From: Urechidicola croceus
GTDB lineage: Bacteria; Bacteroidota; Bacteroidia; Flavobacteriales; Flavobacteriaceae
DNA length: 64,000 nucleotides
Assembly: GCF_001761325.1 (NCBI RefSeq)
Contig: NZ_CP017478.1
Span: 2,873,501 to 2,937,500 of the forward strand
Reading direction: 5' to 3'
The notes under the pieces are model-generated. The model was not told the DNA's origin. It ran no database searches and saw only the letters and a program-made list of their open reading frames with translations. A program made the position numbers and the translations under genes. Within the stretch, counting starts at the first letter, position 1, and each line of letters begins with the position of its first letter. Below are positions 39,471 to 64,000 of this stretch, piece after piece.

Positions 39471-39558
39471 TATAAATAGTTATTTAAGTAAGTTAATTTC
39501 ACTTAGGTTAAAATTAATCATATAAAATAAAAAATACTGTTAATTTTCTCTAAATTAT

Positions 39559-39590
39559 TTGCAAATTAATTAATTTGCGATATAGTTTTG
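39559..39590 (+). promoter_or_regulatory. Promoter of the AraC gene with an 18-bp perfect palindrome in the spacer
   Basis: TTG (39559-39561), a 21-bp spacer and TAGTTTTG (39583-39590) fit the flavobacterial promoter. GCAAATTAATTAATTTGC (39561-39578) is a perfect dyad in the spacer, a place where bound protein would block polymerase. It may also serve the divergent GMC operon. Confidence 0.65.
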
Positions 39591-39604
39591 TTCAAAATAT
39601 TTCA

Positions 39605-40624: not shown

Positions 40625-40734
40625 TATTTTATTTACAAGTTTTTTTTTGTTCAAATTCTTTCACTGATAAAAAATAAACAAAGTTTAGAATTTGATTTTC
40701 TAACTTACCAACTAATTAACTAATCATAACTATT

Positions 40735-41730: not shown

Positions 41731-41758
41731 AAATTAACTTAACTAACTATATTAAATA

Positions 41759-42985: not shown

Positions 42986-42998
42986 AATTAATATAAAA

Positions 42999-44132: not shown

Positions 44133-44149
44133 AAAGTTGAAAATTATTT

Positions 44150-45298: not shown

Positions 45299-45301
45299 CC
45301 T

Positions 45302-46357: not shown

Positions 46358-46364
46358 TAATATC

Positions 46365-47099
46365 ATGAAAAGAAGTATAGTATCATTTTTCGTTTTAGCA
46401 CTAGTTTTATCGTGTAATTGTAAAGATAAACCAACAACTACTTCAACTGATAATGTATCTGATGAAATTACAACTAAAGTAGAGTTTGTTTCATTGTTTG
46501 ATGGAAAATCATTTACTGGTTGGCATTTGTACAATGGAGGAGAATTAAATACTTCACCTTGGAAAATAGAAAATGAAGTATTGAGTTTTACTGGTAGAAA
46601 AGGTGGCTCATCGTATAATTTAGTTACCGATAAAGAATTTACAAATTTCAAATTATCTTTAGAATGGAAAATTTCAGAAGGTGGAAATAGTGGAATTATG
46701 TGGGGAGTTCAAGAAGATCTAAAATATGGAGAGCCGTATTTAACTGGACCTGAAATTCAAGTTTTACATAACGAAAAACATCCTGATGGAAAATATCCAA
46801 CACATCATGCAGGTGCTCTGTATGATATGATTACACCACCTTCTAATGTTACAAAACCTGTTGGAGAATGGAATAAGTGTGAAATTATAATCAATCACAA
46901 AACCAATGAAGGTAAAGTTTGGCTAAATGGAGTAGTTACTGCCGAATTTCCCGTTTATGGAGAAAAATGGGATGAAATGGTGGCAAACTCTAAGTTTAAG
47001 GATTGGGAAGGTTTTGGAAAATTTCAGACAGGAAAAATCTGTTTACAAGATCATGAAGATAAAGTCTGGTATAGAAATATTAAAATTCAAGAATTATAA
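46365..47099 (+). CDS. DUF1080 (3-keto-glycoside hydrolase family) lipoprotein
   Basis: A 244-residue lipoprotein (lipobox LVLSC, Cys17). DUF1080 motifs: VSLFDGKSFTGWHLY, FTNFKLSLEWKIS, GNSGIMWGVQED, GPEIQVLHNEKHPDG, WNKCEIIINH and VWYRNIKIQEL. Its stop codon shares one base with the start of the next DUF1080 gene, so the two are translationally coupled. Likely cleaves 3-keto-glycosides outside the cytoplasm. Confidence 0.88.
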   Translation: MKRSIVSFFVLALVLSCNCKDKPTTTSTDNVSDEITTKVEFVSLFDGKSFTGWHLYNGGELNTSPWKIENEVLSFTGRKGGSSYNLVTDKEFTNFKLSLEWKISEGGNSGIMWGVQEDLKYGEPYLTGPEIQVLHNEKHPDGKYPTHHAGALYDMITPPSNVTKPVGEWNKCEIIINHKTNEGKVWLNGVVTAEFPVYGEKWDEMVANSKFKDWEGFGKFQTGKICLQDHEDKVWYRNIKIQEL

Positions 47100-47884
47100 T
47101 GGTAAAAAAAATAATTGTAGTTACATTTTTGATTTCAATAATTGGTTGTAAAGAATCAGCAGTTGTTGAAATAAAGGAAGAAGCAAAAACAAATTTAGAA
47201 GTTGAACCAACTAAACCTGAGGAAACTGAGATTTGGGAGCCAAAACCTAACGTAGTTAATGTTTCGAATGGTATTCCATCTGATGCAATTGTTTTATTTG
47301 ATGGTTCAAATTTAGATTCTTGGATAAGTGCAGTTGATTCAACTGCTGCAGATTGGCATTTGAATAAAGATGGAAGTATGACTGTGAAAAATAAAGTTGG
47401 TGATATACGTACAAAACAAAATTTTGGAAGTGTACAATTACATATTGAATGGATGTCACCAGCCGAAGTTCAAGGAAGTAATCAATCTAGAGCAAATAGT
47501 GGTGTTTTTCTACAAGGAAAATACGAAGTACAGGTACTAGATAATAATGATAATGATACTTATGTAAATGGTCAAGTAGGATCTATTTATAAGCAATCAA
47601 TTCCATTGGTAAAAGCATCTTCACCAACAGGTAAATGGAACGAATATGATATTATTTTTCATGCTCCAGAGTTTGATACTGATGGAAATAAAACAAAATC
47701 TGGGACTATTACAGTTTTACATAATGGTGTTTTAGTCCAAGATCATTATGAAATTAAAGGAACTACAGAATATATTGGTTGGCCCAAAAATATAGCGCAC
47801 GGAAAAGGTCCAATAGTATTGCAGGATCATGGTGATAATAGCCGTGTGAGTTATAGAAATATTTGGGTGAGAGAATTAAACTAA
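47099..47884 (+). CDS. Second DUF1080 lipoprotein
   Basis: A 261-residue lipoprotein (lipobox ISIIGC, Cys17). DUF1080 features: AIVLFDGSNLDSWISA, FGSVQLHIEWMSP, RANSGVFLQGKYEVQVLDN, WNEYDIIFHAP, GPIVLQDHGDNSRVSYRNIWVREL. The N-terminal linker is rich in Glu, Pro and Lys. It is only distantly similar to its neighbour, so the pair may differ in glycosidic-bond preference or form a complex. It is 10 bp before the subunit-3 gene. Confidence 0.88.
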   Translation: MVKKIIVVTFLISIIGCKESAVVEIKEEAKTNLEVEPTKPEETEIWEPKPNVVNVSNGIPSDAIVLFDGSNLDSWISAVDSTAADWHLNKDGSMTVKNKVGDIRTKQNFGSVQLHIEWMSPAEVQGSNQSRANSGVFLQGKYEVQVLDNNDNDTYVNGQVGSIYKQSIPLVKASSPTGKWNEYDIIFHAPEFDTDGNKTKSGTITVLHNGVLVQDHYEIKGTTEYIGWPKNIAHGKGPIVLQDHGDNSRVSYRNIWVRELN

Positions 47885-47894
47885 AATAAAAATT

Positions 47895-48437
47895 ATGGAG
47901 CGTAGAGAACTTATAAAATTAGTGACTCTTGCAACAGGTGCCGTGTTAACTGTTCCTTTGTCAAGTACATTATTAACAGCATGTAAAAAGGTCGAAAAAA
48001 CTGAAGACATAGCATATGCGCTTCAATTTTTTAATAAAGAGGACTTTTCTATTGTTAAAAATCTAATCGATGTAATTCTTCCAAAAACTGATAGTCCTTC
48101 GGCATCTGATGTTGGAGTGCATCAAATTATTGATACTATCATTGGAAAGGTATATACATCTGATCAACAAAAATCATTTTCAGATAAATTTTCTGCTTTA
48201 AAAACATATTTATTAGAAGATAATCAGTTAGAATCACTTCAAAATTTATCAAAGTCTACGAATGAAAATGATAAAGATGCAAAATCTGCATTTTTAAATT
48301 TAAAGCAACAAACAATTGCTTATTATCTATCTACTGAAGAGATATCAAAGAATTATTTAAATTTTTTACCAATTCCAGGAGAATACAAACCTTGTATCAA
48401 GTTGGATGAAGTTAATGGAAAAGCATGGGCTATATGA
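47895..48437 (+). CDS. Gluconate 2-dehydrogenase subunit 3-family protein (Tat lipoprotein)
   Basis: A 180-residue small subunit with a twin-arginine start (MERRELIKLVTL) and lipobox-like LLTAC with Cys30. The family stretch is KNLIDVILPKTDSPSASDVGVHQIIDTII and the end is PIPGEYKPCIKLDEVNGKAW, which mirrors the paralogue at 37117. It probably carries the GMC subunit across the membrane by Tat and anchors it. It overlaps the GMC start by 4 bp (ATGA). Confidence 0.9.
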   Translation: MERRELIKLVTLATGAVLTVPLSSTLLTACKKVEKTEDIAYALQFFNKEDFSIVKNLIDVILPKTDSPSASDVGVHQIIDTIIGKVYTSDQQKSFSDKFSALKTYLLEDNQLESLQNLSKSTNENDKDAKSAFLNLKQQTIAYYLSTEEISKNYLNFLPIPGEYKPCIKLDEVNGKAWAI

Positions 48438-50137
48438 GTTTAAAAATAGAAAACACCTATGATGCTATTGTTATAGGTTCAGGAATAAGTGGTGGTTATG
48501 CTGCAATGGAATTGTGTACTAAAGGGTATAAAACATTAGTCCTTGAGCGAGGTAGAATGGTAAAACATGGTGAATATCCAACTGCACATAAAGAAATGTG
48601 GGAATTACCAACACAAAATAAATTATCTCAAGAAGAATTGAAAGATTATCCAAAGCAAAATCGTTTAAACTGGTGGGTAAATCAAGATAATAAACATTGG
48701 ATAAATAAAGATACTGAATACAATTATGATGATAGTGCCAATCGTTTTGATTGGATTCGCGGTCATCATGTTGGTGGACGTTCAATTATGTGGGGAAGAC
48801 ATTGTTATCGATGGAGTGATTTGGATTTTGAAGCTAATAAAAAAGAAGGAATTGCCATTGATTGGCCTATTCGATATAAAGATATTGAACCTTGGTATGA
48901 TAGAGTTGAAACTTTTGTGGGAGTGAGTGGCCAGGCTGAGGGTTTAGCTCAAGTACCAGATGGAAAATTTTTAAAACCTGTGCCATTAAATTGTGCAGAA
49001 CAATATTTTAGAGAAGAGGTGGCAAAGGTATATCCTGAAAGGGTAATAACTCCAGGAAGAACTGCCAATTTAACTGAGTACAACCCTGAAGTTCATAAGG
49101 GTTTAAGAGGAAAATGTCAAAACAGAAATAGATGTTGGAGAGGCTGCCCTTATGGAGCATATTTTAGTAGCCAAGCAGCAACATTACCAGTAGCAGAAGA
49201 TACAGGTAATTTAACAATTCGTCCGCATAGTGTAGTATCAGAAATTGTATACGATGAGAATACTGGTAAAGCATCTGGAGTAAAAATTATTGATGCTGAA
49301 ACAGGTGAAAAGTTAGAGATAAACGCAAGAATTATTTTTTGTAATGCTAGTACCGTTGGCACAACAGCAATCCTATTAAATAGCCGTTCTAAACGTTTTC
49401 CAAATGGATTAGGTAATGATAGTGGAGAGTTAGGTCATAATATTATGGATCATCATTACGGAATGGGAGTTTATGGTACTTTAAACAAGTTTGAAGACAC
49501 CTATTATCAAGGTAGAAAACCTCAAAGTTTTTATGTGCCTAGATGTACCAATTTGGGAGATAAAATGACAGAGAGAAACGAATATAAAAGAGGTTTCGGA
49601 TTTCAAGGAACAATTAGAAGAAGAACAGATGATTCTACAAATTTGTTAGGAAAAGATTTGAAAGATGTAATTTTTAAACCAGGACCTTACAAGTTGAGTA
49701 TGACTTGTTTTGGTGAAATGTTGCCATATCACGAAAATAAAATGTCTTTAGATTTTGAAAGGAAAGATAAAAATGGAATTCCTACAATTGTATTCGATGC
49801 AAAGTTAAGAGAAAATGAAATGAAACTTCGTGAAGATGGTGTGAAAGTAGGTATGGAAATGTTAGAGGCTGCAGGTTTTGAAGATATTGGGTATTATAAT
49901 AGTGCTACTGCACCTGGAGCATGTATTCATGAAATGGGTACAGCACGTATGGGTAGAGATCCAAAAACAAGTGTGTTGAATAAATGGAATCAAATGCATA
50001 CAGTACCAAATGTTTTTGTGACCGATGGCGCTTGTATGACAAGTTCAGGAACTCAAAATCCAAGTATTACATATATGGCTTTAACAGCCAGAGCAGTTGA
50101 TTATGCAGATAAGCAAATAAAAGCGGGTAAGTTGTAA
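48434..50137 (+). CDS. GMC-family FAD oxidoreductase, third copy
   Basis: I take ATG 48434, which overlaps the preceding stop as ATGA (567 residues); an ATG 9 bp upstream is possible. FAD motif GSGISGG, LVLERGR, RGHHVGGRSIMW, and C-terminal HEMGTARMG with TQNPSITYMA. Cysteines in Cx5Cx3C order are C228, C234 and C238. It is the most divergent of the three GMC proteins here. Expected role is periplasmic oxidation of a glycoside at C3 with transfer of electrons to the respiratory chain; no cytochrome gene is nearby. Confidence 0.9.
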   Translation: MSLKIENTYDAIVIGSGISGGYAAMELCTKGYKTLVLERGRMVKHGEYPTAHKEMWELPTQNKLSQEELKDYPKQNRLNWWVNQDNKHWINKDTEYNYDDSANRFDWIRGHHVGGRSIMWGRHCYRWSDLDFEANKKEGIAIDWPIRYKDIEPWYDRVETFVGVSGQAEGLAQVPDGKFLKPVPLNCAEQYFREEVAKVYPERVITPGRTANLTEYNPEVHKGLRGKCQNRNRCWRGCPYGAYFSSQAATLPVAEDTGNLTIRPHSVVSEIVYDENTGKASGVKIIDAETGEKLEINARIIFCNASTVGTTAILLNSRSKRFPNGLGNDSGELGHNIMDHHYGMGVYGTLNKFEDTYYQGRKPQSFYVPRCTNLGDKMTERNEYKRGFGFQGTIRRRTDDSTNLLGKDLKDVIFKPGPYKLSMTCFGEMLPYHENKMSLDFERKDKNGIPTIVFDAKLRENEMKLREDGVKVGMEMLEAAGFEDIGYYNSATAPGACIHEMGTARMGRDPKTSVLNKWNQMHTVPNVFVTDGACMTSSGTQNPSITYMALTARAVDYADKQIKAGKL

Positions 50138-50151
50138 TTATCATTTTAATA

Positions 50152-50189
50152 AACTAAAAAGCGGAAGATTAATCTTCCGCTTTTTAGTT
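50152..50189. terminator. Bidirectional terminator, perfect 38-bp palindrome
   Basis: AACTAAAAAGCGGAAGATT followed directly by its exact reverse complement, with A- and T-runs on both sides. It separates the convergent GMC and HAD genes and serves both. Confidence 0.9.
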
Positions 50190-50853
50190 AAATCAATTTT
50201 TTATCAACCACATAATTTTGAACTTCTGAAAAGTCCTTAAATATCTTGTCTGCAATTTTTAATTTTGGATGAACCGCTTCATAATGTTGAATTGCAAATG
50301 TAGTTAGTCCTGCTGCTTTAGCAGATTTAATTCCATTTTGCGTATCTTCAAAAACTAAGTATTCATTCTTTTTAAATCCAAGAGTATTTACACATAAATC
50401 ATAAGACTCAGGATGAGGCTTACTTTCTTTTACATCACTACATGTAATAGTGGTTTTAAAATACTTACTGAGATTTGTTTTGCTAAAAATATAATCTACT
50501 AAAATACGTGGACTACCAGTTACAAGTGCAATAGGATATTCTTTAGCATGAAGAAAATCTAACATTTCTATTGCATAAGGCATAAATATAATATCTTCAT
50601 TTTTAAGACGGTGTGTAGCAACCTCTTTACGCATTTGTGCAAACTTATCTATTGAAATACTTAAATTACTATACTCAATAATCATTTTGGAAGATTGAGC
50701 GTTTGGAATTCCGGCTAAGGTTTTTAAATAAAAATCATAATCGTATTGTACGTTAAATTTTTTTAAAACTTCATTTAAAGAATTAAAATGAAATTTTTCT
50801 GAATCTACAATAGTACCATCAAAATCGAAAATGAATGCTTTGATTTTACTCAT
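50188..50853 (-). CDS. HAD-family sugar phosphatase / beta-phosphoglucomutase-like
   Basis: A 221-residue cytoplasmic HAD-IA protein. Nucleophile Asp10 and Asp12 are in FDFDGTIVDS, motif II is LVTGSPR, motif III Lys is in ESKPHPESY, and motif IV is VFEDTQNGIKSAKAAG. It also has the alpha-helical cap of beta-phosphoglucomutase/sugar phosphatases. The gene is 11 bp after a Gfo/Idh gene, suggesting a sugar-phosphate step. Confidence 0.88.
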   Translation of the reverse strand: MSKIKAFIFDFDGTIVDSEKFHFNSLNEVLKKFNVQYDYDFYLKTLAGIPNAQSSKMIIEYSNLSISIDKFAQMRKEVATHRLKNEDIIFMPYAIEMLDFLHAKEYPIALVTGSPRILVDYIFSKTNLSKYFKTTITCSDVKESKPHPESYDLCVNTLGFKKNEYLVFEDTQNGIKSAKAAGLTTFAIQHYEAVHPKLKIADKIFKDFSEVQNYVVDKKLI

Positions 50854-51871: not shown

Positions 51872-53530
51872 TTATTTGGCGAAATAAATATAAATAGCAA
51901 TTACTATAATACATATTGCAATACCGACTGCTTTAACATGTTTCCAAGGTTTAATATCAACTTGTTCAGTATATTCTAAGACATACGCTTCCTTTCGAGG
52001 ATATAACTTACCAATAATCAACATTATTACAATATTGAGAATGAATAAAAGTGCCATAATATGTAAGAAATGAGGGTACGCATCTGCTTCTACTATTCTC
52101 AAAGCAGCTGGATCTGTAATTCCTGCTGCTTCTGCCTCAGCTAAAGCATTAGCAATTCTACTAGGTCCAATCCAAAATTGACTGATAATATATAAAATAG
52201 ATCCAGATAATATTCCGATTTTGGCCGCAATTGCAGGTACTCTCTTAGTTAGATAACCAACAACAATAATTGTAAAGATTGGAATACTATAAATACCATT
52301 AATCTCTTGTAAATAGTTAAATAAACTTCCAGCATCAGCAATTAACGGAGCAATAAACATGGCTGCCAAAGCTAAACAAATACCAAATATTTTACCATAT
52401 TTAACAACAGTCATTTCAGGTGCTTCTTTATTGATATGTTGTTTGTAAATATCTATCCCGAATAATGTTACAGAACTATTTAATACACTATTAAAAGAAC
52501 TTAAAATTGCTCCGAACAATACAGCAGCAAAAAATCCAACAAGGTAATCTGGTAAGACTGCTCGAACCAATTCTGGATAAGCCATATCATTTGAGTCTAA
52601 TCCACCTTTGAAATAGTGGTATGCTATCATTCCAGGTAATACTAAAATTAGTGGGCCTAAAATTTTCAAAAATGATGCTAAAAGTAGTCCTTTTTGCCCT
52701 TCGGCTAAGTTTTTTGCACCTAATGCACGTTGTATAATTTGTTGGTTAGTTCCCCAATAAAATAATTGTACGAGCATCATCCCTGTAAAAATGGTAGAAA
52801 ACGGAACTTCTTGACCATGATTTCCAGTTGAGTCAAAACGTTCTGGATTTGCATTAATTAAATTTTCTAAACCAGTTAATACACTATCATCACCAATAGC
52901 CATTAATCCAAAAATTGGAATTAATAAACCACCAATTAAAAGTCCAATTGCATTAATTGAATCAGAAACTACAACAGCTTTAAGTCCTCCAAAAACTGCA
53001 TAAATTGAACCTATAACGCCTATTCCCCAAATACATGCAATAAGTGCTGTTTTATCTGAAACATTTAAAAGCGTAGGGACATCAAACATGCCACTTATAG
53101 CTACTGCACCAGAATATAATATAACAGGTAGCAATACTATAACATAACCAGATAAAAACAATGCTGAAGTGATAGTTTTTGTTGATGTATCAAAGCGTTT
53201 TTCTAAAAATTGAGGTACAGTTGTTAAGCCACCTTTTAAATATCGTGGTAATAAAAATAGCGCAGTCACAACCATAGCAATAGCGGCTAAGGTTTCCCAT
53301 GCCATGACAGATAATCCATCTTTATATGCACTCCCGTTGAGTCCAACAATTTGTTCGGTTGATAAATTTGTTAGTAATAATGATCCGGCAATAACTCCTG
53401 CAGTTAAACTTCTACCTCCAAGAAAATAACCATCTGATGAAGTTTCATCAGTTTTACGTGTTTTAATGTAGGCAATGATTCCTACGAGTGCTGTAAAACC
53501 GACAAAAGAAAAAATACTTATATAATCCAT
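51872..53530 (-). CDS. Sodium/solute symporter (SSS family, sugar-type)
   Basis: A 552-residue membrane protein with about fourteen hydrophobic segments. SSS features: GRSLTAGVIAGSLLLTNLSTEQIVGLNG near helix 1-2, AVFGGLKAVVVSDSINAIGLLIGG and GAILSSFNSVLNSSVTLFGIDIY. The pattern resembles SglT-type sodium/galactose symporters. It likely takes up the monosaccharide or keto sugar used by the downstream Gfo/Idh and HAD enzymes. A 98-bp gap separates it from the preceding gene; no clear terminator is seen there. Confidence 0.9.
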   Translation of the reverse strand: MDYISIFSFVGFTALVGIIAYIKTRKTDETSSDGYFLGGRSLTAGVIAGSLLLTNLSTEQIVGLNGSAYKDGLSVMAWETLAAIAMVVTALFLLPRYLKGGLTTVPQFLEKRFDTSTKTITSALFLSGYVIVLLPVILYSGAVAISGMFDVPTLLNVSDKTALIACIWGIGVIGSIYAVFGGLKAVVVSDSINAIGLLIGGLLIPIFGLMAIGDDSVLTGLENLINANPERFDSTGNHGQEVPFSTIFTGMMLVQLFYWGTNQQIIQRALGAKNLAEGQKGLLLASFLKILGPLILVLPGMIAYHYFKGGLDSNDMAYPELVRAVLPDYLVGFFAAVLFGAILSSFNSVLNSSVTLFGIDIYKQHINKEAPEMTVVKYGKIFGICLALAAMFIAPLIADAGSLFNYLQEINGIYSIPIFTIIVVGYLTKRVPAIAAKIGILSGSILYIISQFWIGPSRIANALAEAEAAGITDPAALRIVEADAYPHFLHIMALLFILNIVIMLIIGKLYPRKEAYVLEYTEQVDIKPWKHVKAVGIAICIIVIAIYIYFAK

Positions 53531-53628: not shown

Positions 53629-54516
53629 CTACTTTTTTATTGGTAAATAGACTTCTGTAACCCATTTTAATTCATTTCCACCAAGATTTGGGTTATTTTG
53701 GAATATTTCAAAAGGTGTATTTTCAATAATAAAATTATTCTTTTTAGCATAGTCTTGAAGTGCATACCAAGTTCTATCAGAAGTAATATAATTTCCGTTA
53801 TAAATTGCCTTTAATGCATGTTTAGATTCAAGCTGTTTGTATTTAATAATTGTGTGGTTGGGTAATGTATCGGGTTTTATAATTGGATAGCAGAAATTAA
53901 AATGAATACTATCAGTATCTTGATTCCATTTTGTGATTTCAATAATTGGTTTTCCGTTTAATTCAACATTATTTTGAACAATGAATGAACTAATCATTTC
54001 ATAATTTTTCATCATCCCTCTTGCCTTTTCTATTTGTTTTCCTTTCATTGGAACATAGGCGCAAAAAGTACTTTTTATTTCACTTTTACCTTCAATTGTA
54101 ATTTTAAAATTTTCAATATGTTCATTTAGTTTTTTACTAAAATCTGTAAGGGTGTTTTTGGTTCTTTTTTCAAAGTCTGTAGTGCCAAATGGAATGCTCA
54201 ATTTGTTCATAATACTATGATTCAAATCCTTAATACCAACAGTAATTTTTGAAGTAGAATCAGAGGTTTTTTTAATATTCCAATTGTAATTATAAATTGA
54301 ATCTCCGAATTGAATTTTCTGATTTAAATTGTATAAATCATCTTGTTGAATTGATGAATTTCCTATGTTGTCACTCCATAATTTTATTGATTGGTTGATT
54401 GTTCCAGGATTTGTTTTTGCTTTTAATGTTACTATATAGTCATTTGGTTTTATAAATATATACCAAACTAAAAAACCAATAATTAATAAAAATATTGCAA
54501 TTAGTACTTTTCTCAT
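53629..54516 (-). CDS. Membrane-anchored GyrI-like effector-binding domain protein
   Basis: A 295-residue protein with one N-terminal membrane segment (VLIAIFLLIIGFLVWYIFI). Residues 25-160 look like an SRPBCC-type ligand-binding half (YIVTLKAKTNPGTINQSIKLW), and the C-terminal part (HALKAIYNGNYITSDRTWYALQDYAKKNNF, WVTEVYLPI) matches GyrI-like/AraC effector-binding domains. No DNA-binding domain is present, so it is a small-molecule binder at the membrane rather than a regulator. It is 2 bp after the haloperoxidase-like gene, so the two should be co-translated. Confidence 0.75.
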   Translation of the reverse strand: MRKVLIAIFLLIIGFLVWYIFIKPNDYIVTLKAKTNPGTINQSIKLWSDNIGNSSIQQDDLYNLNQKIQFGDSIYNYNWNIKKTSDSTSKITVGIKDLNHSIMNKLSIPFGTTDFEKRTKNTLTDFSKKLNEHIENFKITIEGKSEIKSTFCAYVPMKGKQIEKARGMMKNYEMISSFIVQNNVELNGKPIIEITKWNQDTDSIHFNFCYPIIKPDTLPNHTIIKYKQLESKHALKAIYNGNYITSDRTWYALQDYAKKNNFIIENTPFEIFQNNPNLGGNELKWVTEVYLPIKK

Positions 54517-54518
54517 TA

Positions 54519-55853
54519 TTACTTTGTCATCTTTATTTTATTAACAACAAATCCTCCCAATTTTCGACCTTGATCAACACCAACTTCAACAGCGGCGCGA
54601 TAATGAATTCCGCCGTACATTCTACTTATTGCTGCTTCATCTGCTGCTATATTAAACGATTTAAAAGTTCTAACAGGTAATCCGTATCTAGTTTCGGTAT
54701 AATCTTCAAATTGAAAATTATCTCCAAATATTGATGTAAGAACTGTTGAAGCAGCACCAGAAACTACTGAATGCCCACTTGAGTATTCAGGAAATGGAGG
54801 TGTTTGTAAAATAGGTTTCCAACTATCATCAATATGATTGTTAATTAATGTTTCTGGACGAATTAAATTACTACGATATTTTTCATCCCAACAACTAATA
54901 AATGCATCTGCCATTGCTATAGATGCTTTGGTATATACAAAAACTGTTTTGTCAAAATCTGTATTAGTTTGTTTACAAGCAATTTTAGTAATTCCCATCC
55001 AATGAGCTCCAGGAGTTATTTTTTTAGTAGCAAACATTAAATGACCTCGAGTCACAGATACATACGGATTACAATCCCAAAATTGAGCAATAGCAATTTC
55101 TTCAGAAGTATCTCCTTCTTTAGTTATTTTGTTACTAATGTCATAAACTTCTTTTAATTCTTTGTAAAAAGCAGAGTTTTTATCCATAGAAAATTTTGGA
55201 GGAGGAATTGGCTTAAACTGTGCTGCCGAATCAATCACGAATGGTCTAATTTTGTTCCAATGAGGTTCAATACCATCCATATATGCTGGAGGTGTTGGTT
55301 GCCATCTCGATGGGTCGTCAGAGTCTAAAGTAAATTTAGACATTGTACGTGTTTGTTTATAATTGTCCTTATCCATCCATTTTTCAATATGACTTACAAC
55401 TTCCAATGCATATTTTTCTGATTCTTCAAAAACGGTAGGATTTTTTGATTTCCAGATAGTATATAAACTATCTCTGTAAGTTTCAATTTTTTCTTCTGAA
55501 AAAACTAATTTTTTACTTAAATCCATATGTGCAATAAGTGCTGATAATTGAAAATTGATATTATCAGTATTTTTTGGTTTTGGAATTGAAGTTAATTCAT
55601 TTATTTGATTTGATAATGTTTTGTATGAATCATTATTTTGAGCAATAATTTCATACGCAGCAACATTTGGATATGCAAAAATTCTACTTGCAACAGGAGG
55701 AGAAAAAATATCATGTACCATAATATCAACTACATGGTCAATTGCATCATGATATTGATTGGCTGTGACAATAATTGGCTCTTTCTTTTTTGAGCATGAA
55801 ACAATTGTTGTCAATGCTAATGTTAACGATAAAAAATATTTGATAGGTTTCAT
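54519..55853 (-). CDS. Vanadium-dependent haloperoxidase/PAP2-type lipoprotein
   Basis: A 444-residue lipoprotein (lipobox IVSC, Cys20). The vanadate/phosphate site is complete: KX6RP as K325-YRSNLI-R332-P, SGH as S359-G360-H361 in EYSSGHS and SRxxxxxH as R411 and H417 in SRMYGGIHYRA. Family members oxidise halides with hydrogen peroxide or act as acid phosphatases; sequence alone does not separate these. Its neighbours are VCBS/ASPIC proteins upstream and a GyrI-like protein downstream. Confidence 0.85.
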   Translation of the reverse strand: MKPIKYFLSLTLALTTIVSCSKKKEPIIVTANQYHDAIDHVVDIMVHDIFSPPVASRIFAYPNVAAYEIIAQNNDSYKTLSNQINELTSIPKPKNTDNINFQLSALIAHMDLSKKLVFSEEKIETYRDSLYTIWKSKNPTVFEESEKYALEVVSHIEKWMDKDNYKQTRTMSKFTLDSDDPSRWQPTPPAYMDGIEPHWNKIRPFVIDSAAQFKPIPPPKFSMDKNSAFYKELKEVYDISNKITKEGDTSEEIAIAQFWDCNPYVSVTRGHLMFATKKITPGAHWMGITKIACKQTNTDFDKTVFVYTKASIAMADAFISCWDEKYRSNLIRPETLINNHIDDSWKPILQTPPFPEYSSGHSVVSGAASTVLTSIFGDNFQFEDYTETRYGLPVRTFKSFNIAADEAAISRMYGGIHYRAAVEVGVDQGRKLGGFVVNKIKMTK

Positions 55854-55868
55854 TTTTGTGAAATTTTA

Positions 55869-58800
55869 TTATTTTATTTGATAGACTTCCGCCTTGTCAT
55901 TATGAATTGTTATTAATAGATATGAATTTGAATTGAAATTCAAAACATTTAAACTTCTAATTGATTTCTTACTTAAATCCAGTCCAAAATCGCTTCCTAA
56001 AAGTATTTCATTTTCATTTTTTATAAGTGCTCCAGAAAAAGAATCCAATCTGCCGTGGAATGGTTTGGTACCAAAGTAATTTCCTGCAACTAATACCTCA
56101 TTTTGCCCGTTATTATCAAAATCATACTTTAAAAAAGCAGTTATAGGAGATACTTGTAATTCATTTTTAAATGGTACAAATATGAACTTTCCATTTTCGT
56201 TTTTTAGATAACCTGAACGCAGTTCATTTATAGTAAGTAATTTTGCATCGCTTAATACTTTTTTATCAAAAATTTGTTCGACAGTTTTTCCAGCAAAACT
56301 TTTATAAGTAGTAAATTTTTTCTTTACTGAAACAATTTGACTCGTAATTTCATTAAGACCTAAGAGAGGGTAGTAGTTTCCATTTTTCTCAGTTGAAACA
56401 ATCGTTTCTGTTTTTCCATTATTGTCAAAATCTGCATAATGCATGTTCATTGGGTATTTATTCGATGCTTTGAACTTCGAGTTTAATCCCCAATTTCCAA
56501 GTAAATAATCTAAATCACCATCATTGTCAATGTCAAAAGGTTCGATAACTCTCCAAAGACCATTTAAGTCTTCATCTATTAATTCTACTTTATTTAGAAT
56601 ACCATTATTATTTTTGAAAAATGAAGGTTTCATCCATTCTCCAACAACAATTAAATCTTCAATTCCATCATTATCAAAATCGGACCAAACAGCATCTGTA
56701 ATCATCCCTATAGAATTCAATTCCTTATTTTCAATTATTGAAAAATTACCGTTTTCATTGTTCAAAATGTATGAATTTGGAATACTTCCAAATTTATTTG
56801 ATACCACATTATTACCCACGAAAACATCTAAATCACCATCACTATCATAATCATGTACTTTCATAACGGATGCATTTTCAAATGTTTCAGGAAAACTATG
56901 GGCAATAAAACTAGAATCATTTTGGATATAAAAGGAGTCAGTAAGAGGTTTTGATTTGTTCGAAAAATTAGCACCACCAGTACCTATTATTAAATCATTT
57001 TTACCGTCATTATTAAAATCGGCAATTAAAGAAACAACATCTTCTTTTATGGAATCTTTTTTAATGGTTGGAATTTCTGTTTTTATAAAACTAGAATCAC
57101 TTTGAATATAGATTTTTGATGAAATATGTTTTGAACCTCCAAAGAAAATATCAGGTTTTGAATCGTTGTTTAAATCTCCAATCGAAACTGCAGGACCTCT
57201 ATCTGATACTTGATATGGGATCAGTTTCTCTCTGTTGAAATCTATAAAACCATCTTCGATATGAGTGAAGTCAATTCCTAAATTATTATCAATTCTTGTA
57301 AATAAAGACTTAGTTTTAGGATGTAAACTAGCATAATTAAACTCTTTAGTATTTTCTTGTGAAATTGTCAAATTTTGATTGGTTTTTACATCTTTTAAAA
57401 CTTGAAAAGTATTATTTGGCCAAATAATTTTTAACGAATCAATTTGTTCTGATTGATTGAATCCAAAATGAATTATGGGCTCTGAAGATGCTTGAAATCC
57501 TCGAACAGTATATAATTCTTTGAATTGTAATTCGCCATCGTTATAAGCAAAGACTTTTGTTCCTATTCCAAACGAATTAGGTTTTGAATAGTTAAATTTT
57601 AGTTTTAAATAATTTGACTTTTCATTGGTTTTATTGATATATAGTGTTGCAGGACTGTTGATATTATTGGTAATAATATCTAAATCTCCATCATTATCAA
57701 GATCGGCTAGGGCAGTGGCTCCTGAAATTTGTTTTACAGAACCATTAATCCAATCATTAGATTTATCTTCAAATTGAAGGTTTTTATTTCCTTTAAAAAC
57801 GTAGTTATGAACTTCACCAGTTGGCATTAATTCCAATGCTTGTTGGTCAACCAACTTGGTGTTGTCTATCTTTTTTTGAATTTGATCGTTGGAAACAAAA
57901 TTAATGTAATCTAAATCATTTGGACGTTTAGGAATTCCATTAGAAACAAATAAATCTTGTTCGCCATCTTGATTAAAATCTGCAAATAAACCGCTCCAAC
58001 TCCAATCTGTAGCCGCAATTCCACTCATTAAAGCAGTCTCTGAATAACTGCCATTTTGTTGGTTTAAGTGGAGCATATTTCTTGTGAATTGGTAATGATA
58101 CCCATAGCGTTCAATTCGCATTTTTTGAGTTTGAATGTTATCATCACCTTCAGAAGTTTTTAATACAACTTCATCTTCTGGAAGCATATCTAAAGATAAA
58201 ATATCTGGTAAACCATCATGATTAATATCTGCAACATCATTTCCCATAGAGAAACGTGTTGTATGTCCAAAATGTTCTTTTAATTTTTCAGAAAAAGTTC
58301 CATCTCCGTTATTCAAATAATAATAATCATCTTCATGAAAATCATTTCCAACATAAATATCAGGAAAACCATCTTGGTTAAAATCGGAAATTGCAATTCC
58401 TAATCCATATCCATTAATACCACCAAAAATTCCTGCTTCTTCACTTACCTCTGTGAATTTATTTCCATCATTACGCATCAATTTATCACCAGTTTGGTAG
58501 TTTCGTTTAAAACGTAAATCTGCTTTTCCAAAAGATTCTTGAGAATGAACTGCATGATTTAAAATATAGATGTCTAAATCTCCATCCAAATCATAATCTA
58601 AAAATGCTGCGGATGAACTGTATGAGTCAAAATCTAAACCAAATTTTGCGGCACTTTCAGAAAAAGTTCCGTCTCCATTGTTAATGTATAATTCATTAAA
58701 GCCATTGAAACCGTTAACCCCAACAACAGCACAAACATAAATATCAAGTAATCCGTCTCCATTTATATCACCCATAACTGCTCCAGTATTCCAACTACTT

Positions 58801-59117
58801 TTCCCTTCTATTCCTGCAGTCTTACTTACATCTTCAAATTTTAAATTACCTTTATTCAGATACAATTTGTTTTTTACTTGGTTTCCAGACATGAAAATAT
58901 CAGGAAGATTATCATTATTAATATCACCTATAGCAACTCCACCACCATTATAAAAATAGAGGTAATCTAAGATGTTTAAATCTTCGGTTTCAGTAATTGT
59001 ATTGATGAAATCAATCCCCGTTTTTTCGGCAATAGGAGTGTCAAAAAGTTTACCTCCATTCGAACTACAACTAAGAAAGAGTAAGATTCCTAAAATTGAA
59101 AATATAGACTTATTCAT
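55869..59117 (-). CDS. VCBS/FG-GAP and ASPIC/UnbV repeat lipoprotein
   Basis: A 1082-residue lipoprotein (LLFLSC, Cys17). FG-GAP/VCBS calcium loops are numerous (DINNDNLPD, DINGDGLLD, DYDLDGDLD, DFNQDGFPD, DLDNDGDLD). The ASPIC/UnbV module is at about 500-580 (TVRGFQASSEPIIHFGF, LKIIWPNN). The start overlaps the stop of the gene at 59110 by 8 bp. It is about as long as the PUL paralogue at 31051 and shares the GGGVAIGDINND opening. Confidence 0.88.
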   Translation of the reverse strand: MNKSIFSILGILLFLSCSSNGGKLFDTPIAEKTGIDFINTITETEDLNILDYLYFYNGGGVAIGDINNDNLPDIFMSGNQVKNKLYLNKGNLKFEDVSKTAGIEGKSSWNTGAVMGDINGDGLLDIYVCAVVGVNGFNGFNELYINNGDGTFSESAAKFGLDFDSYSSSAAFLDYDLDGDLDIYILNHAVHSQESFGKADLRFKRNYQTGDKLMRNDGNKFTEVSEEAGIFGGINGYGLGIAISDFNQDGFPDIYVGNDFHEDDYYYLNNGDGTFSEKLKEHFGHTTRFSMGNDVADINHDGLPDILSLDMLPEDEVVLKTSEGDDNIQTQKMRIERYGYHYQFTRNMLHLNQQNGSYSETALMSGIAATDWSWSGLFADFNQDGEQDLFVSNGIPKRPNDLDYINFVSNDQIQKKIDNTKLVDQQALELMPTGEVHNYVFKGNKNLQFEDKSNDWINGSVKQISGATALADLDNDGDLDIITNNINSPATLYINKTNEKSNYLKLKFNYSKPNSFGIGTKVFAYNDGELQFKELYTVRGFQASSEPIIHFGFNQSEQIDSLKIIWPNNTFQVLKDVKTNQNLTISQENTKEFNYASLHPKTKSLFTRIDNNLGIDFTHIEDGFIDFNREKLIPYQVSDRGPAVSIGDLNNDSKPDIFFGGSKHISSKIYIQSDSSFIKTEIPTIKKDSIKEDVVSLIADFNNDGKNDLIIGTGGANFSNKSKPLTDSFYIQNDSSFIAHSFPETFENASVMKVHDYDSDGDLDVFVGNNVVSNKFGSIPNSYILNNENGNFSIIENKELNSIGMITDAVWSDFDNDGIEDLIVVGEWMKPSFFKNNNGILNKVELIDEDLNGLWRVIEPFDIDNDGDLDYLLGNWGLNSKFKASNKYPMNMHYADFDNNGKTETIVSTEKNGNYYPLLGLNEITSQIVSVKKKFTTYKSFAGKTVEQIFDKKVLSDAKLLTINELRSGYLKNENGKFIFVPFKNELQVSPITAFLKYDFDNNGQNEVLVAGNYFGTKPFHGRLDSFSGALIKNENEILLGSDFGLDLSKKSIRSLNVLNFNSNSYLLITIHNDKAEVYQIK

Positions 59118-62100
59118 TTATTGTAAAAATTTTAGGTTTACCATCATTTACTGCGGTGATGAAATATGTTTTACCACTTTTATCTTTGAATTGTGCCAAA
59201 TGTTTTACTTCGTCTCTTAGGAAAAACCCACTTGTGTTATAATCCTTCCATTCAAATCCAAGATTACCATCGTTTAAAAGTAGGGTTCCAAAATTACTAT
59301 CCAATCTTGAATATTGTGGTTTAAATTCGTAGTTGTTTCCAGCCATTAGAATATCAATATTGCCATCATTATTTACGTCCGTACAGGTGATTCCACACAC
59401 ACAAGATAACTGTACTCTTGTAGGGAGTTTTATAATTTTGAATTGCCCATTCCCTTCATTAATAGCAATAACCGATTCAGAAATATTACTTTTTCTAACA
59501 ATTGAATTTTCAATAATCTCAGTAGGAAACAATTCTTCTACTGTTCTTTTAGCATATTCTGAAGCCTTTAGATTTTCTTTTTTCAACTTCACAATTTGAG
59601 TGGTTAATTCTTTTTTCATGTGTAGTGGATAGTCTTTTCCGTTAAAATCACGTGTTGTAATTTGTTCAATAGTTCCATTATTATCAAAATCATTGATCCA
59701 CATTTTCATAGGGTTTTCAATCGTTGGTTTATAAGAAATATTATTCCCTTGATTACCCAAGATTAAGTCATTATCTCCATCATTATCTAAATCAACACTT
59801 TCAAGAACATTCCACATTCCATGAAGTTCGTCTAGTGAAGTTTCCATTTTGGCTAATCTCCTACCTGTATTTTTAAAAATTTTAGTTGTTCCCCATTCAG
59901 AAGTTGTTACTAAATCTAGTTTTGAGTCTCCATCCATATCTTTCCAAATAGCATCTGTAATCATTCCAGCATTACGAAGATCATAGGCCAATCTTTCTGT
60001 AGCGTTGTCAAATGTTCCATCACCATTATTTTCTAGAAATAGGTGAGAAGGGTCAACTCCATATGTACCTACAACACTTCTCGAACCTACAAATACATCA
60101 ATATCACCATCATTATCATAATCGTAAGGGTTTATTGTAGAAATATTATTATTTGTTGAAGGAATGTTTTCAGTACTTTTTGAGAAATTTCCTTTACCAT
60201 CGTTTAAATACAATCGAACTTTGTAATTTCTTTCAGAACCAACCTCATTTCCTCCAGAACCAACCATTAGGTCAATATTACCATCTTGATTTACATCAAA
60301 AAATGCTGCAGCAGTATCTTCGAGTTCAGCATCTAGATTAAATGAATTTTGAGTTTTTTGCTTTAATTTGCCAGAACCTTGATTTAAATATATTGTTCCT
60401 GATTGATCTTTTCCACCACCTATAAATACATCTTCATTTCCATCATTATCAATATCTCCAATTGCCATTGAAGGTCCTTCTTGTGAAAGCATTTTTGAAA
60501 TCAATCCTTCATAGTCAAAATCTGAATAATTGTTTTCATCATGTGCGATTAAATTATTATTTGGAAGTTCTTTAATAATAGATTTCTTTTTCTCAATTAC
60601 AGGTTTGTATATTTCTTCAGCATCTTGTTGCTTGAAATATAATGATTGATTTGCAGCAACTTTAAATAGTTTTTGAGTTTTATCATTCGGCCAAATAATT
60701 TGAATAGAATCAATTTCTTTCGTTTTTCCTAATCCAACAGTTACTGGATATTCCATTGAAGATTGGAATCCACGTGAAGGCATTACTTCTTGTAGAATTG
60801 TACTGTTATTGAAATATAATTTAATTTTTGTTCCAATGGCAAATTTGTTGGCTTGTTCACCTTCAAAATTTAATTTGATGTAATTATTATTTGTCAGTTT
60901 TTCAGAATTATTTTTATAAACAAATGATTCCATATTCACATTGTTTATTACTAAATCTAAATCACCATCGTTATCTAAATCAGCATATGCAGCACCGTTT
61001 GATAAACTAGGTAAGTCAAATCCCCAATCTTTGGTTGCATTGTCAAAAGTAATATCACCATTATTTTTATATGCATAATTTACCTGTGGTGCTCTTGGCA
61101 TTTTATTGATAATTGAATCAATAGCTTCTTTTTTACCTGTTAACGCCATTTTTTGAATGATTTCATTAGCAAAAAAATCAACAAAATCAAGATCGGTTAA
61201 ATCATGATTAACACCATTGGTTACATAAATATCTTTAAACCCATCATTGTCCATATCGAATAAAAGACCTGACCAACTCCAATCTGTTTTGGCAACGCCA
61301 CTAAAATAGGCTACTTCAGAAAATGAACCATTACCATTGTTTAATTGTAAGGTGTTCTGAATATATTGTTGAAAGAAGTCTTTACTTTGCTTCAATTTAA
61401 AAACATTGTAGCCTTCAAATTCCATTACCGATTTTACACGCTGGTCGCCTTCAGGAAGCATATCGGTAATAAAAATATCAGCATTACCATCATTATTAAT
61501 ATCAGCCATATCAACACCCATTGCTGATAGACAAAGATGCGAAGTCCAATTTTTTATATCTTCTGTGAAAGTTCCATTTTTATTGTTGATGTAAAGGTAA
61601 TCACGTTCATAGAAGTCATTTGACACATAAATATCTGGATATAAATCGTTATTGATATCCGTAACCATAACTCCTAATCCGAAACCAATCAAACTTCCAT
61701 AAATCCCTGCTTTTTCGCTGACATCAACAAATTTTCCACCATCGTTTCTCAATAACATATCTCCAACTCCTCTAAAAATTTCAGGAACTCCTTCCCAATC
61801 TTGCGCTCTTTTATCACGTTGCTCAGCATACCCTAAACTACTTACAGGAATATTGCTATTATTTAAAATGTAGGCATCTAAATCTCCATCTTTATCATAA
61901 TCAAAGAAAGTGGCATGTGTGCTGAAACCTGTTTCTGCTAGGTTATATTCTTCTGCTTTTTCAGTAAAAGTTAAATCCCCATTATTTATATATAAATCAT
62001 TGTCATGGTTATTTCCTTTCATGTTACCTGCATTACTTACATAAATATCCAACAATCCATCTTGATTGATGTCAACCATATTTACACCAGTAGACCAAGG

Positions 62101-62457
62101 TTTATTTCCAACAACACCAGCACTTTCAGTAATATCTTCAAATTCAAAATTACCTTTGTTTAAATAGAGTTTATTTGGAGCCATATTTCCTGTTAAGTAA
62201 ATATCTGGCAAACTATCATTGTTTATGTCGCCAATTGCAACTCCACCACCATTGTAAAAATTACGGTATTTAAAGATGTTAAAATTCTTTTGATTTTTAA
62301 CTTCGTTGATGAAATCAATTCCAGTTTCTTCTGATGAAAGAAGTGTAAATAACGTTTCTGCTTTTTCTTTTTTAACAACTTTTTCATCATTCTTGGTAGA
62401 GCAAGAAGAAACTGCAAAAAAGAGGATAATTACATGTATGTATTTTATAAATTTCAT
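59110..62457 (-). CDS. VCBS/FG-GAP and ASPIC/UnbV repeat lipoprotein
   Basis: A 1115-residue lipoprotein (AVSSC, Cys19). Calcium-loop repeats include DINNDSLPD, DINQDGLLD, DYDKDGDLD, DMDNDGFKD and DVNQDGNID; the ASPIC/UnbV module has PSRGFQSSMEYPVTVGLG and IQIIWPNDK. The layout matches the tandem neighbours, which indicates duplication of whole genes followed by divergence. The stop overlaps the next start by 8 bp, and the gap to the upstream gene is 3 bp. Confidence 0.88.
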   Translation of the reverse strand: MKFIKYIHVIILFFAVSSCSTKNDEKVVKKEKAETLFTLLSSEETGIDFINEVKNQKNFNIFKYRNFYNGGGVAIGDINNDSLPDIYLTGNMAPNKLYLNKGNFEFEDITESAGVVGNKPWSTGVNMVDINQDGLLDIYVSNAGNMKGNNHDNDLYINNGDLTFTEKAEEYNLAETGFSTHATFFDYDKDGDLDAYILNNSNIPVSSLGYAEQRDKRAQDWEGVPEIFRGVGDMLLRNDGGKFVDVSEKAGIYGSLIGFGLGVMVTDINNDLYPDIYVSNDFYERDYLYINNKNGTFTEDIKNWTSHLCLSAMGVDMADINNDGNADIFITDMLPEGDQRVKSVMEFEGYNVFKLKQSKDFFQQYIQNTLQLNNGNGSFSEVAYFSGVAKTDWSWSGLLFDMDNDGFKDIYVTNGVNHDLTDLDFVDFFANEIIQKMALTGKKEAIDSIINKMPRAPQVNYAYKNNGDITFDNATKDWGFDLPSLSNGAAYADLDNDGDLDLVINNVNMESFVYKNNSEKLTNNNYIKLNFEGEQANKFAIGTKIKLYFNNSTILQEVMPSRGFQSSMEYPVTVGLGKTKEIDSIQIIWPNDKTQKLFKVAANQSLYFKQQDAEEIYKPVIEKKKSIIKELPNNNLIAHDENNYSDFDYEGLISKMLSQEGPSMAIGDIDNDGNEDVFIGGGKDQSGTIYLNQGSGKLKQKTQNSFNLDAELEDTAAAFFDVNQDGNIDLMVGSGGNEVGSERNYKVRLYLNDGKGNFSKSTENIPSTNNNISTINPYDYDNDGDIDVFVGSRSVVGTYGVDPSHLFLENNGDGTFDNATERLAYDLRNAGMITDAIWKDMDGDSKLDLVTTSEWGTTKIFKNTGRRLAKMETSLDELHGMWNVLESVDLDNDGDNDLILGNQGNNISYKPTIENPMKMWINDFDNNGTIEQITTRDFNGKDYPLHMKKELTTQIVKLKKENLKASEYAKRTVEELFPTEIIENSIVRKSNISESVIAINEGNGQFKIIKLPTRVQLSCVCGITCTDVNNDGNIDILMAGNNYEFKPQYSRLDSNFGTLLLNDGNLGFEWKDYNTSGFFLRDEVKHLAQFKDKSGKTYFITAVNDGKPKIFTINE

Positions 62458-62460
62458 GAG

Positions 62461-64000
62461 TTAATTAAGTTCTTTAGTTAAAAAGATAGGTGTATTATTA
62501 TTTATACCAATTATGTATTGGTCAGTGCCATTAATTTTAATTTTTTCGATAGATCTTGCTGGTCCTTGAATGTTAAAATTCTGATTCTTCTTTTCTGTAA
62601 AAAAACCTTTTTTATCATTCAATAATAATACTCCGTGAGAAGCATCAAATCTACCTAACTGCGTACTTATTTCATAATTATTACCAATTAAAAGTAGGTC
62701 TGGAAATTGATCATTATTAAAATCGTCAATTACAATGTCAAATACATTTGAAACTTGAGCCATAAACGGTAGTTCATGTTTTTCAAAAGTATTATTTCCG
62801 TTATTTTTAAAATAGCAAGAAGCCAATTCATAAACTTCTTTTTTCAAAGAAGTACTCAATTTTTCCTTTGAAAATAAATCTGTAAAATCAGCATTTGCAA
62901 AATCAGCATAGGATAAATATTTCTTGTTTAGAAATGGCATTTGTTTCACCAATTCATCTTTTGAGGCAAATGGTGTTTCTTCTCCTTGATAATAATATGT
63001 TACAAGTGATTCAACACGTCCATTATCATCGAAATCCTGACTGTATAATGTAATTGGCTCTTTAGACGAGGCATTTAATCTTGAATTTAAGCCCCAATTT
63101 CCAGAAATGATATCCAAATCTCCATCTTTGTCAAAATCTTCAACTATTACTGAATTCCACCAACCATTGGATTCATTTAAATTGTTGTTTTTTTGTAACT
63201 CTAGTTGCTTGCCATTATTTATAAAAATAGAAATTGGCATCCAATGGCCTACGGCAATGGCGTCTTGTAGTTTATCTCCGTTCATATCTATCCAAACTAT
63301 GTCTTGAATATTACCAATCGTTTCAAATTCTTCAGCAAATATTGAAGTTATATTCTTAAAACTTCCTTTTCCGTCGTTTTCAAAAATATATTGAGTAGGA
63401 GTGACACCAAATTTCCAAGGTTGAAGGTTTGAGCAAATATTAATATCCAAATCACCATCATTATCAATATCAACGGCTTTAACTTTTGATGCATTAACAG
63501 CGATATTTTGAAACTGAATGGAATCTTTAGTGAATACACCATTTTTATTAATGTATAATCTCGGTCTTAAAGGTTTTCCATTTCTGAATTCATTTCCGCC
63601 ACTGACAACAAGCAAGTCTTTGAATCCATCATTATTTGCATCAAAAAACACTTGTGAAACATCTTCATTTATGGCATCGTGTTCAAAAATATTATTTTGA
63701 GAACTTTGGAATTCACCATTTGTTTGTTGAATATTCAGTTGAGAAGCTTGTCTTTTTCCTCCACTGATAAATATATCTTCTAAACTATCATTGTTAACAT
63801 CTACAATAGAAATTTCAGGGCCAAGATTTGTACTTGCATATGGGATTAAAGGATCACGATTAAATTCTACACTAGAACCATCTTTATGTTTAAAATTCAA
63901 AAGGTTAGAAGTATTAGTAAGTAAACCTTTAGTTAGGGTTGAAAAAATAGAGTAATAATCATCAAAAGCATCATAATAGTTGATAGTTAATTCTTGATTT
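62461..64000 (-). CDS. VCBS/ASPIC repeat protein, 5' part cut by window edge
   Basis: The frame is open to the right edge (513 codons visible). A possible start at 63900 is a TTG inside the conserved region, so it is not the true start; residues before it (LTINYYDAFDDYYS) continue the frame. The visible part corresponds to the C-terminal half of the paralogues, from the linker after the ASPIC module (FNRDPLIPYASTNLGPEISIVDVNND) to the last calcium loops (DFNNDQFPD). Third of three tandem copies. Confidence 0.85.
   Translation of the reverse strand, partial: NQELTINYYDAFDDYYSIFSTLTKGLLTNTSNLLNFKHKDGSSVEFNRDPLIPYASTNLGPEISIVDVNNDSLEDIFISGGKRQASQLNIQQTNGEFQSSQNNIFEHDAINEDVSQVFFDANNDGFKDLLVVSGGNEFRNGKPLRPRLYINKNGVFTKDSIQFQNIAVNASKVKAVDIDNDGDLDINICSNLQPWKFGVTPTQYIFENDGKGSFKNITSIFAEEFETIGNIQDIVWIDMNGDKLQDAIAVGHWMPISIFINNGKQLELQKNNNLNESNGWWNSVIVEDFDKDGDLDIISGNWGLNSRLNASSKEPITLYSQDFDDNGRVESLVTYYYQGEETPFASKDELVKQMPFLNKKYLSYADFANADFTDLFSKEKLSTSLKKEVYELASCYFKNNGNNTFEKHELPFMAQVSNVFDIVIDDFNNDQFPDLLLIGNNYEISTQLGRFDASHGVLLLNDKKGFFTEKKNQNFNIQGPARSIEKIKINGTDQYIIGINNNTPIFLTKELN

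Follow-up and report, generated by a model that had tools for sequence, protein, structure and literature searches.

Strict specificity for iodide is reported of one bacterial enzyme, zgVIPO1 of Zobellia galactanivorans, which we take to be the protein of PDB entries 4CIT and 4USZ, described by Fournier in 2014. Entry 4USZ is named as the vanadium iodoperoxidase of Z. galactanivorans in a study of iodine uptake by Arenibacter sp. C-21, the genome of which contains homologues of it; peroxide takes part in the uptake, for which glucose, oxygen and calcium are required; glucose is dispensable once peroxide has been generated, and a glucose oxidase together with a haloperoxidase was proposed to account for it (PMC5064120). 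Z. galactanivorans is itself able to accumulate iodine (PMC9296495). Here we describe a cassette of five genes which very probably contains an enzyme of the same type. It was encountered in a window of 64,000 nucleotides (the whole stretch of DNA analysed) from Urechidicola croceus, a member of the Flavobacteriaceae (contig NZ_CP017478.1, positions 2,873,501 to 2,937,500), and comprises three large VCBS/ASPIC propeller proteins (VCBS3, VCBS2 and VCBS1), a vanadium haloperoxidase (VHPO) and a GyrI-like protein. All cassette genes lie on the minus strand of a genome of 3.43 Mb in one contig, and from VCBS3 to GyrI they are spaced by 3, -8 (the overlap of VCBS2 and VCBS1), 15 and 2 bp. These genes, and two others to which we refer below, are as follows.

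62461 to 64000 (C-terminal part), minus strand: VCBS3, FG-GAP/ASPIC protein at position 3, assigned by orthologue group and Pfam
Locus L001, 7961 to 11212, minus strand: whole gene of VCBS3, 1083 residues, 11 loops; the window holds less than half of it
59110 to 62457, minus strand: VCBS2, FG-GAP/ASPIC lipoprotein at position 2, 1115 residues, 13 loops
55869 to 59117, minus strand: VCBS1, FG-GAP/ASPIC lipoprotein at position 1, 1082 residues; PF13517 and PF07593, 14 DxDxDG-type loops
54519 to 55853, minus strand: probable vanadium iodoperoxidase (VHPO/PAP2) lipoprotein of the zgVIPO1 type, 444 residues; PF01569, phmmer match to 4cit/4usz
53629 to 54516, minus strand: GyrI-like protein, 295 residues; Pfam PF06445, E=3e-7
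Locus L001, 15097 to 18204, minus strand: SusC of the cassette, outside the window, with one in-frame TAA
31051 to 34353, plus strand: fourth ASPIC paralogue, in a SusC/SusD/GH26 locus, outside the cassette position groups

This layout bears out a first-pass annotation of the window, which had described three paralogues of about 1100 residues head to tail with an 8-bp overlap and a 3-bp gap, a haloperoxidase/PAP2 lipoprotein with a full K-R-SGH-R-H site, a membrane GyrI-like protein 2 bp further, and a fourth paralogue inside a mannan polysaccharide utilisation locus. A phmmer search of the PDB matches the peroxidase to 4cit/4usz with E=5e-229 and 72.3% identity across 433 residues, that is over its full length, and the vanadate site is complete (K325, R332, S359-G360-H361, R411 and H417). 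These residues are identical in 89 of the 89 rows of an alignment that comprises 87 distinct sequences, with two duplicate pairs, 84 distinct close rows and three distant paralogues (loci L043-L045). Based on the 72% identity to 4CIT/4USZ and the whole catalytic set, it is thus very probable that the protein is an iodoperoxidase and not a glycan phosphatase. Hence, of the two activities initially considered, halogenation or phosphate release from bound glycans, the halide chemistry stands and is narrowed to iodide. The row nearest to 4CIT, with 98.4% identity, is the peroxidase of Z. uliginosa (locus L046), where the gene order is likewise VCBS3-VCBS2-VCBS1-VHPO-GyrI. The genome of U. croceus also encodes a second, distant haloperoxidase-like gene (G000:C1:748253-749092, in a 502-residue frame; loci L005, L006 and L045) of 33-38% identity, in which the vanadate site is kept and an Asp stands four residues after the last His.

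Conservation of the neighbourhood was assessed in named genomes, where the best 80 of at least 588 relatives were retained and 77 loci larger than 5 kb were analysed (three below 5 kb were excluded), and in a survey of 279 genomes, which we assign to the Flavobacteriaceae because loci in them coincide with those of named records. VCBS1, VHPO and GyrI are consecutive in 61 of the 77 named loci, and all five genes from VCBS3 to GyrI in 33, the flanks often stopping inside VCBS3. For the survey, cut-offs were set at 57% identity or more for the peroxidase, E<=1e-40 for GyrI and 1190 bits for VCBS1 (two split genes excepted); its GyrI and VCBS1 counts, here and below, are among the matches listed. 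Peroxidases above the cut-off were found in 99 of the 279 genomes (100 genes). At least 74 GyrI-type proteins were identified, 69 of them adjoining a peroxidase with a median gap of 37 bp, and at least 77 VCBS1 orthologues in 76 genomes, 69 of which adjoin a peroxidase; the latter count is low rather than high, because the rows of 43-47% that were excluded sometimes adjoin a peroxidase too (G022, G206). GyrI and VCBS1 co-occur in 72 genomes (72 of the 74 with GyrI and 72 of the 76 with VCBS1), and GyrI is present in 71 of 99 genomes with the peroxidase compared with 3 of 180 without it (Fisher p=5e-39, uncorrected for shared ancestry). One genome (G260) has VCBS1 and GyrI side by side and no peroxidase there. 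The linkage noticed at first is therefore real, lipoprotein-rich and conserved: far from being specific to this strain, the arrangement recurs in many genera and is thus not due to chance, and we consider it very probable that the cassette constitutes a functional module rather than an accident.

Beyond the family, a scan of the phylum detected the peroxidase at E<=1e-40 in 74 of 395 genomes. Twenty other-family loci, mostly high-scoring, were picked by hand from the 60 matching non-family genomes, as were 20 atypical loci from the same family (among them L230, a split cassette, and L231, chosen for its absent peroxidase); exclusion of L200 and L231, in which no peroxidase frame was called, left 19 in each set. 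A VCBS protein is the immediate neighbour of the peroxidase in 9 of the 19 other-family loci and lies within 20 kb in 15, the corresponding figures for the atypical same-family loci being 13 and 16 of 19. Because VCBS neighbours are found again outside the family, next to peroxidases of about 50% identity, the association of VCBS proteins with the peroxidase seems to be older and wider than that of GyrI. Two further features of these loci were recorded. In L105 the cassette holds a 97-residue remnant matching the peroxidase, and an intact peroxidase follows a few genes downstream; GyrI, or a lone peroxidase, is often followed downstream by the gene of a 285-residue protein that matches nothing in Pfam (L092:12212-13069 and 60 other loci).

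The three VCBS proteins are old, position-specific paralogues. In a tree of 86 proteins, positions 1, 2 and 3 form separate groups, with 5 label changes for four groups compared with a mean of 48 after shuffling; position 3 occupies one side of a branch, while positions 1 and 2 require two changes each, each enclosing a row from the other-family locus L198. A recent tandem duplication of the three genes is rejected, as the members of each position form a separate, old group. The genome contains five ASPIC matches: the three in the cassette, the mannan-locus paralogue and one in locus L003, the last two being placed outside the position groups. A profile of VCBS1 matches CRTAC1 (9etn) with E=1e-21, and CRTAC1 is also the top fold match (target TM 0.73) of its predicted model (pLDDT 79.7). 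Loops of the DxDxDG type, as found in calcium sites, number 11 to 14 per cassette VCBS protein. A resemblance of VCBS1 to TnmK2 (E=0.008) was discarded, TnmK2 being absent from the 50 fold-search matches listed. With a loose pattern, a lipobox-like motif was detected in VHPO (35 of 40), VCBS1 (32 of 40), VCBS2 (26 of 38), VCBS3 (18 of 29) and SusD (28 of 36), and it is rare in SusC (6 of 34) and GyrI (3 of 40).

The GyrI-like protein scores 31.2 bits against PF06445, for which the cut-off is 26. Its AlphaFold2 model (pLDDT 93.6) comprises an N-terminal helix (residues 2-22) and a GyrI-like domain (approximately 138-295), and residues 27-135 or so appear, in our reading of the model, to form an SRPBCC-like layer. 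Foldseek places CtaZ, CTR107 and EcmrR at the top of its matches, followed by STM3175 and lin2189. As described in PMC5684135, cyclopropanoid hydrolases of the GyrI type require two catalytic glutamates and an aromatic cage (E157, E185, W85 and Y187 in lin2189). In an alignment of 64 rows, E270 is conserved in all 64, E288 is Glu in 55 and Asp in 6, and Y290 is Tyr or Phe in 62; the equivalence of these positions to the lin2189 residues is a guess.

The unit is larger than first described. We examined 40 loci of 20 kb, drawn from the 65 that have both VCBS1 and GyrI, a choice which leaves only the count of SusC/SusD independent. In 36 of the 40, the cassette is preceded by SusC or SusD on the same strand; SusD is directly continuous with the VCBS genes in 21, and the whole order SusC-SusD-VCBS3-VCBS2-VCBS1-VHPO-GyrI is uninterrupted in 17. 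In two loci (L156, L160) a kinase/regulator pair separates SusD from the VCBS genes, the same as in U. croceus, where a divergent histidine kinase/response regulator pair, SusD, SusC and a trehalase follow upstream of VCBS3 beyond the window, with 19 bp between SusC and SusD and 2.3 kb, occupied by the two-component genes, between SusD and VCBS3. SusC/SusD thus usually belong to the unit, so that the five genes of the first-pass annotation stand and the extent given there does not.

Genes of sugar metabolism are frequent nearby, and the cassette core itself contains no carbohydrate-active enzyme. Among 75 trehalase rows (PF01204) from the 279 genomes, counted with one of two G148 fragments excluded and divided at 600 residues after the lengths had been seen, at least 23 of the 40 proteins of 600 residues or more are encoded within 20 kb of a peroxidase versus 1 of the 35 shorter ones, about 0.5 being expected at a rough 1% each; the figure of 23 is a lower bound because a trehalase and a peroxidase on separate contigs were scored as far apart. 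GH97, GH13 and MFS genes occur nearby in some loci, in L198 GyrI and the peroxidase are separated by a GH65 gene (by Pfam), and a gene of similar length (674-680 residues across the three loci) precedes the peroxidase in L201 and L204. Alpha-glucosides may accordingly be substrates of the importer in one lineage or more, though the genes on the flanks are variable. Xylose genes were rejected as a constant partner, xylose isomerase being found in just 12 of the 40 loci. A different arrangement was seen in other families (L206, L210, L211 and L213), where an oxidative partner set and then VCBS-VHPO come after SusC and a SusD-like gene (so assigned by Pfam in L206 alone); the set consists of a small protein (redoxin-like in L206, none in L213) and a protein of about 440-480 residues (with a weak copper monooxygenase match in L206).

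We suggest that the cluster, typically SusC-SusD-VCBS(2-3)-vanadium iodoperoxidase-GyrI in flavobacteria, is a TonB-dependent nutrient-uptake locus equipped with an iodoperoxidase, in which GyrI protects the cell, and would give this overall explanation an even chance. SusC/SusD, identified by their protein families, form the TonB-dependent outer-membrane importer, presumably for an alpha-glucoside-type or other oligosaccharide, and the CRTAC1-like propeller lipoproteins, going by their fold and lipobox, may be its calcium-loaded partners in the outer membrane. The peroxidase lipoprotein, located outside the inner membrane, would by virtue of its 72% identity convert hydrogen peroxide and iodide to hypoiodite or iodine, with algal defence and sugar oxidation as possible sources of the peroxide. 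Iodide oxidation would then consume peroxide and supply iodine for accumulation, and the membrane-anchored GyrI-like protein might, as its fold indicates, bind or destroy reactive hydrophobic by-products in the periplasm. The physiological role so stated, namely use of peroxide and provision of iodine, is tentative and in our judgement falls somewhat short of even probability. PMC9296495 describes vIPO3, another paralogue of Z. galactanivorans, as upregulated on the brown alga A. nodosum compared with alginate, an observation in keeping with a function in countering the peroxide or halogen defence of algae. The cassette is present in two Arenibacter genomes other than C-21 (L051, L052), and its calcium-type loops and linkage to sugar genes would, by analogy, fit the iodine-uptake phenotype of C-21. 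One may even imagine a peroxide-, sugar- and calcium-dependent iodine-uptake machine of marine Flavobacteriaceae, with the peroxidase producing hypoiodite, calcium-loaded propellers holding oxidised or organic iodine, SusC/SusD importing it and GyrI managing it in the periplasm; we regard this as distinctly unlikely, and if true it would amount to TonB-dependent halogen uptake built on a sugar-uptake chassis.

Several observations weigh against the proposal of a peroxidase-equipped uptake locus. Neither VCBS1 nor GyrI adjoins 28 of the 100 close peroxidase genes, and the enzyme can thus occur in the absence of the complete cassette; a few of these genes are at the edge of a contig or have a partner some kilobases away (G207, G267), and several have other VCBS neighbours. 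Other genes intervene between SusD and the VCBS genes in 15 of the 40 loci, in 13 of them for the most part two genes plus an SSF gene in antisense orientation; SusD is absent from 4, and the flanking sugar genes differ from locus to locus (trehalase, xylose genes, GH65, GH97). Acidic residues following the lipobox Cys are fewer in VHPO (1.37) and the VCBS proteins (1.31-1.77) than in SusD (2.68), and cell-surface exposure of the former is therefore not settled. Moreover, in U. croceus itself SusC is interrupted by a TAA at codon 263, whereas complete SusC frames at the loci of relatives (22 of them) have 1027-1120 residues, and this stop may represent decay, polymorphism or a sequencing error. 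VCBS3 starts only five residues ahead of the lipobox Cys, with no ATG, GTG or TTG upstream that would yield a signal peptide, in contrast to the nine relatives inspected. The in-frame stop and the lack of a normal start indicate that the cassette may be decaying in this strain. No full-length relative was found in 13 genomes of the same genus, several of them incomplete, and the cassette may here be an acquired or relict locus.

Chemical defence provides a second, unlikely account of the same genes: hypoiodite released by the peroxidase would act on competitors where the bacterium feeds, killing or silencing them, and GyrI would serve for self-protection. Fold relatives of GyrI do bind xenobiotics or confer resistance, as CtaZ does with closthioamide and STM3175 against albicidin, and a GyrI-like hydrolase subfamily acts on DNA-alkylating agents (PMC5684135). 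The nearly invariable company of GyrI and VCBS1 also speaks for this account; however, 28 of the 99 genomes with the peroxidase lack GyrI, and the linkage to SusC/SusD and sugar genes would be left unexplained. A third account, in which the peroxidase prepares bound polysaccharide or phenolics for import through SusC/SusD by oxidising or halogenating them, is very unlikely. The position of the peroxidase near SusC/SusD and often near alpha-glucosidases, including the gene that precedes it in L198, L201 and L204, would suit such a scheme, but iodide-specific peroxidases are weak oxidants, and sugar enzymes of the kinds neighbouring the cassette work on small saccharides. Equally improbable is an accidental assembly of independent genes held together by family inheritance. 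The 28 peroxidase genes with neither partner adjoining, the variable flanks and the Fisher test that takes no account of ancestry are in keeping with accident, whereas the small gaps, the constant gene order and the recurrence of VCBS neighbours in other families argue against it. Finally, that the PAP2 enzyme is a phosphatase freeing phosphate from glycans is extremely improbable and rejected on homology: despite a common superfamily and vanadate/phosphate site, the 14 PDB sequences matched by the peroxidase include no PAP2 phosphatase, and the Asp four residues past the last His, which we take to be the PAP2 phosphatase motif, gives way to Ala in this protein and in all 84 distinct close rows, occurring in the alignment only in the three distant paralogues.

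On the other side of the cassette, downstream of GyrI and on the same strand, three genes follow at 98, 23 and 11 bp, for all of which membership in the operon is uncertain.

51872 to 53530, minus strand: SSF sodium:solute symporter; PF00474, NCBIfam PRK10484 with 777.9 bits
50865 to 51848, minus strand: GFO/IDH/MocA oxidoreductase, after the SSF gene
50188 to 50853, minus strand: HAD phosphatase, beta-phosphoglucomutase-like, below the curated cut-off of that model

A function of the SSF protein as an iodide symporter is unsupported, its match being to the general model PRK10484, and it would rather have a role in sugar transport. The interval from the GH26 locus to the cassette contains, at 37749-50137, a pathway of the 3-keto-disaccharide type (two GMC oxidoreductases, a gluconate dehydrogenase subunit 3-like protein, two 3-keto-disaccharide hydrolases, GFO/IDH, TIM barrels and MFS). 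A sugar-oxidase link through the two GMC oxidoreductases was considered and rejected as a general feature, because at 1e-30 each query matches only 1 of the 77 named loci and 1 of the 40 cassette loci.

In the open literature we found no paper on a haloperoxidase together with a VCBS repeat and, among the matches listed, no account of a SusC/SusD-VCBS-GyrI cluster, subscription papers including Fournier 2014 being outside this scope. The cluster thus offers a physiological context, none having been found in the papers searched, for a bacterial iodoperoxidase known from a solved structure. With it the large VCBS/ASPIC proteins, for which those papers yielded no function, acquire a biochemical partner, and peroxide-based iodine uptake by flavobacteria becomes directly testable by gene deletion in Zobellia; for Z. 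galactanivorans a knockout mutant is reported (PMC8490876).

Comparison with known systems places the cassette between several of them. Its peroxidase shares with zgVIPO1 every vanadate-site residue and 72% identity over the full length, and the orthologue of Z. uliginosa resides in the same cassette. Arenibacter C-21 belongs to the same family, its iodine uptake implicates a haloperoxidase, glucose, oxygen and calcium, and two further genomes of its genus contain the cassette; PMC5064120, however, names no uptake gene, and the tie to the cassette is one that we infer. The GyrI-like protein shares its fold with the xenobiotic binders CtaZ, STM3175 and lin2189, and differs from them by its predicted N-terminal membrane helix and SRPBCC-like layer. 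As in CRTAC1 (ASPIC-UnbV; 9etn), an FG-GAP propeller and an ASPIC domain with calcium-type loops are present in the VCBS proteins, yet these are lipoproteins of about 1100 residues with extra FG-GAP repeats past ASPIC, which probably form a second propeller, and they occur as two or three position-specific paralogues per cassette. Finally, with SusC/SusD upstream and sugar genes often nearby the cassette resembles a polysaccharide utilisation locus, the core of which, however, is here built around an oxidoreductase instead of a carbohydrate-active enzyme.

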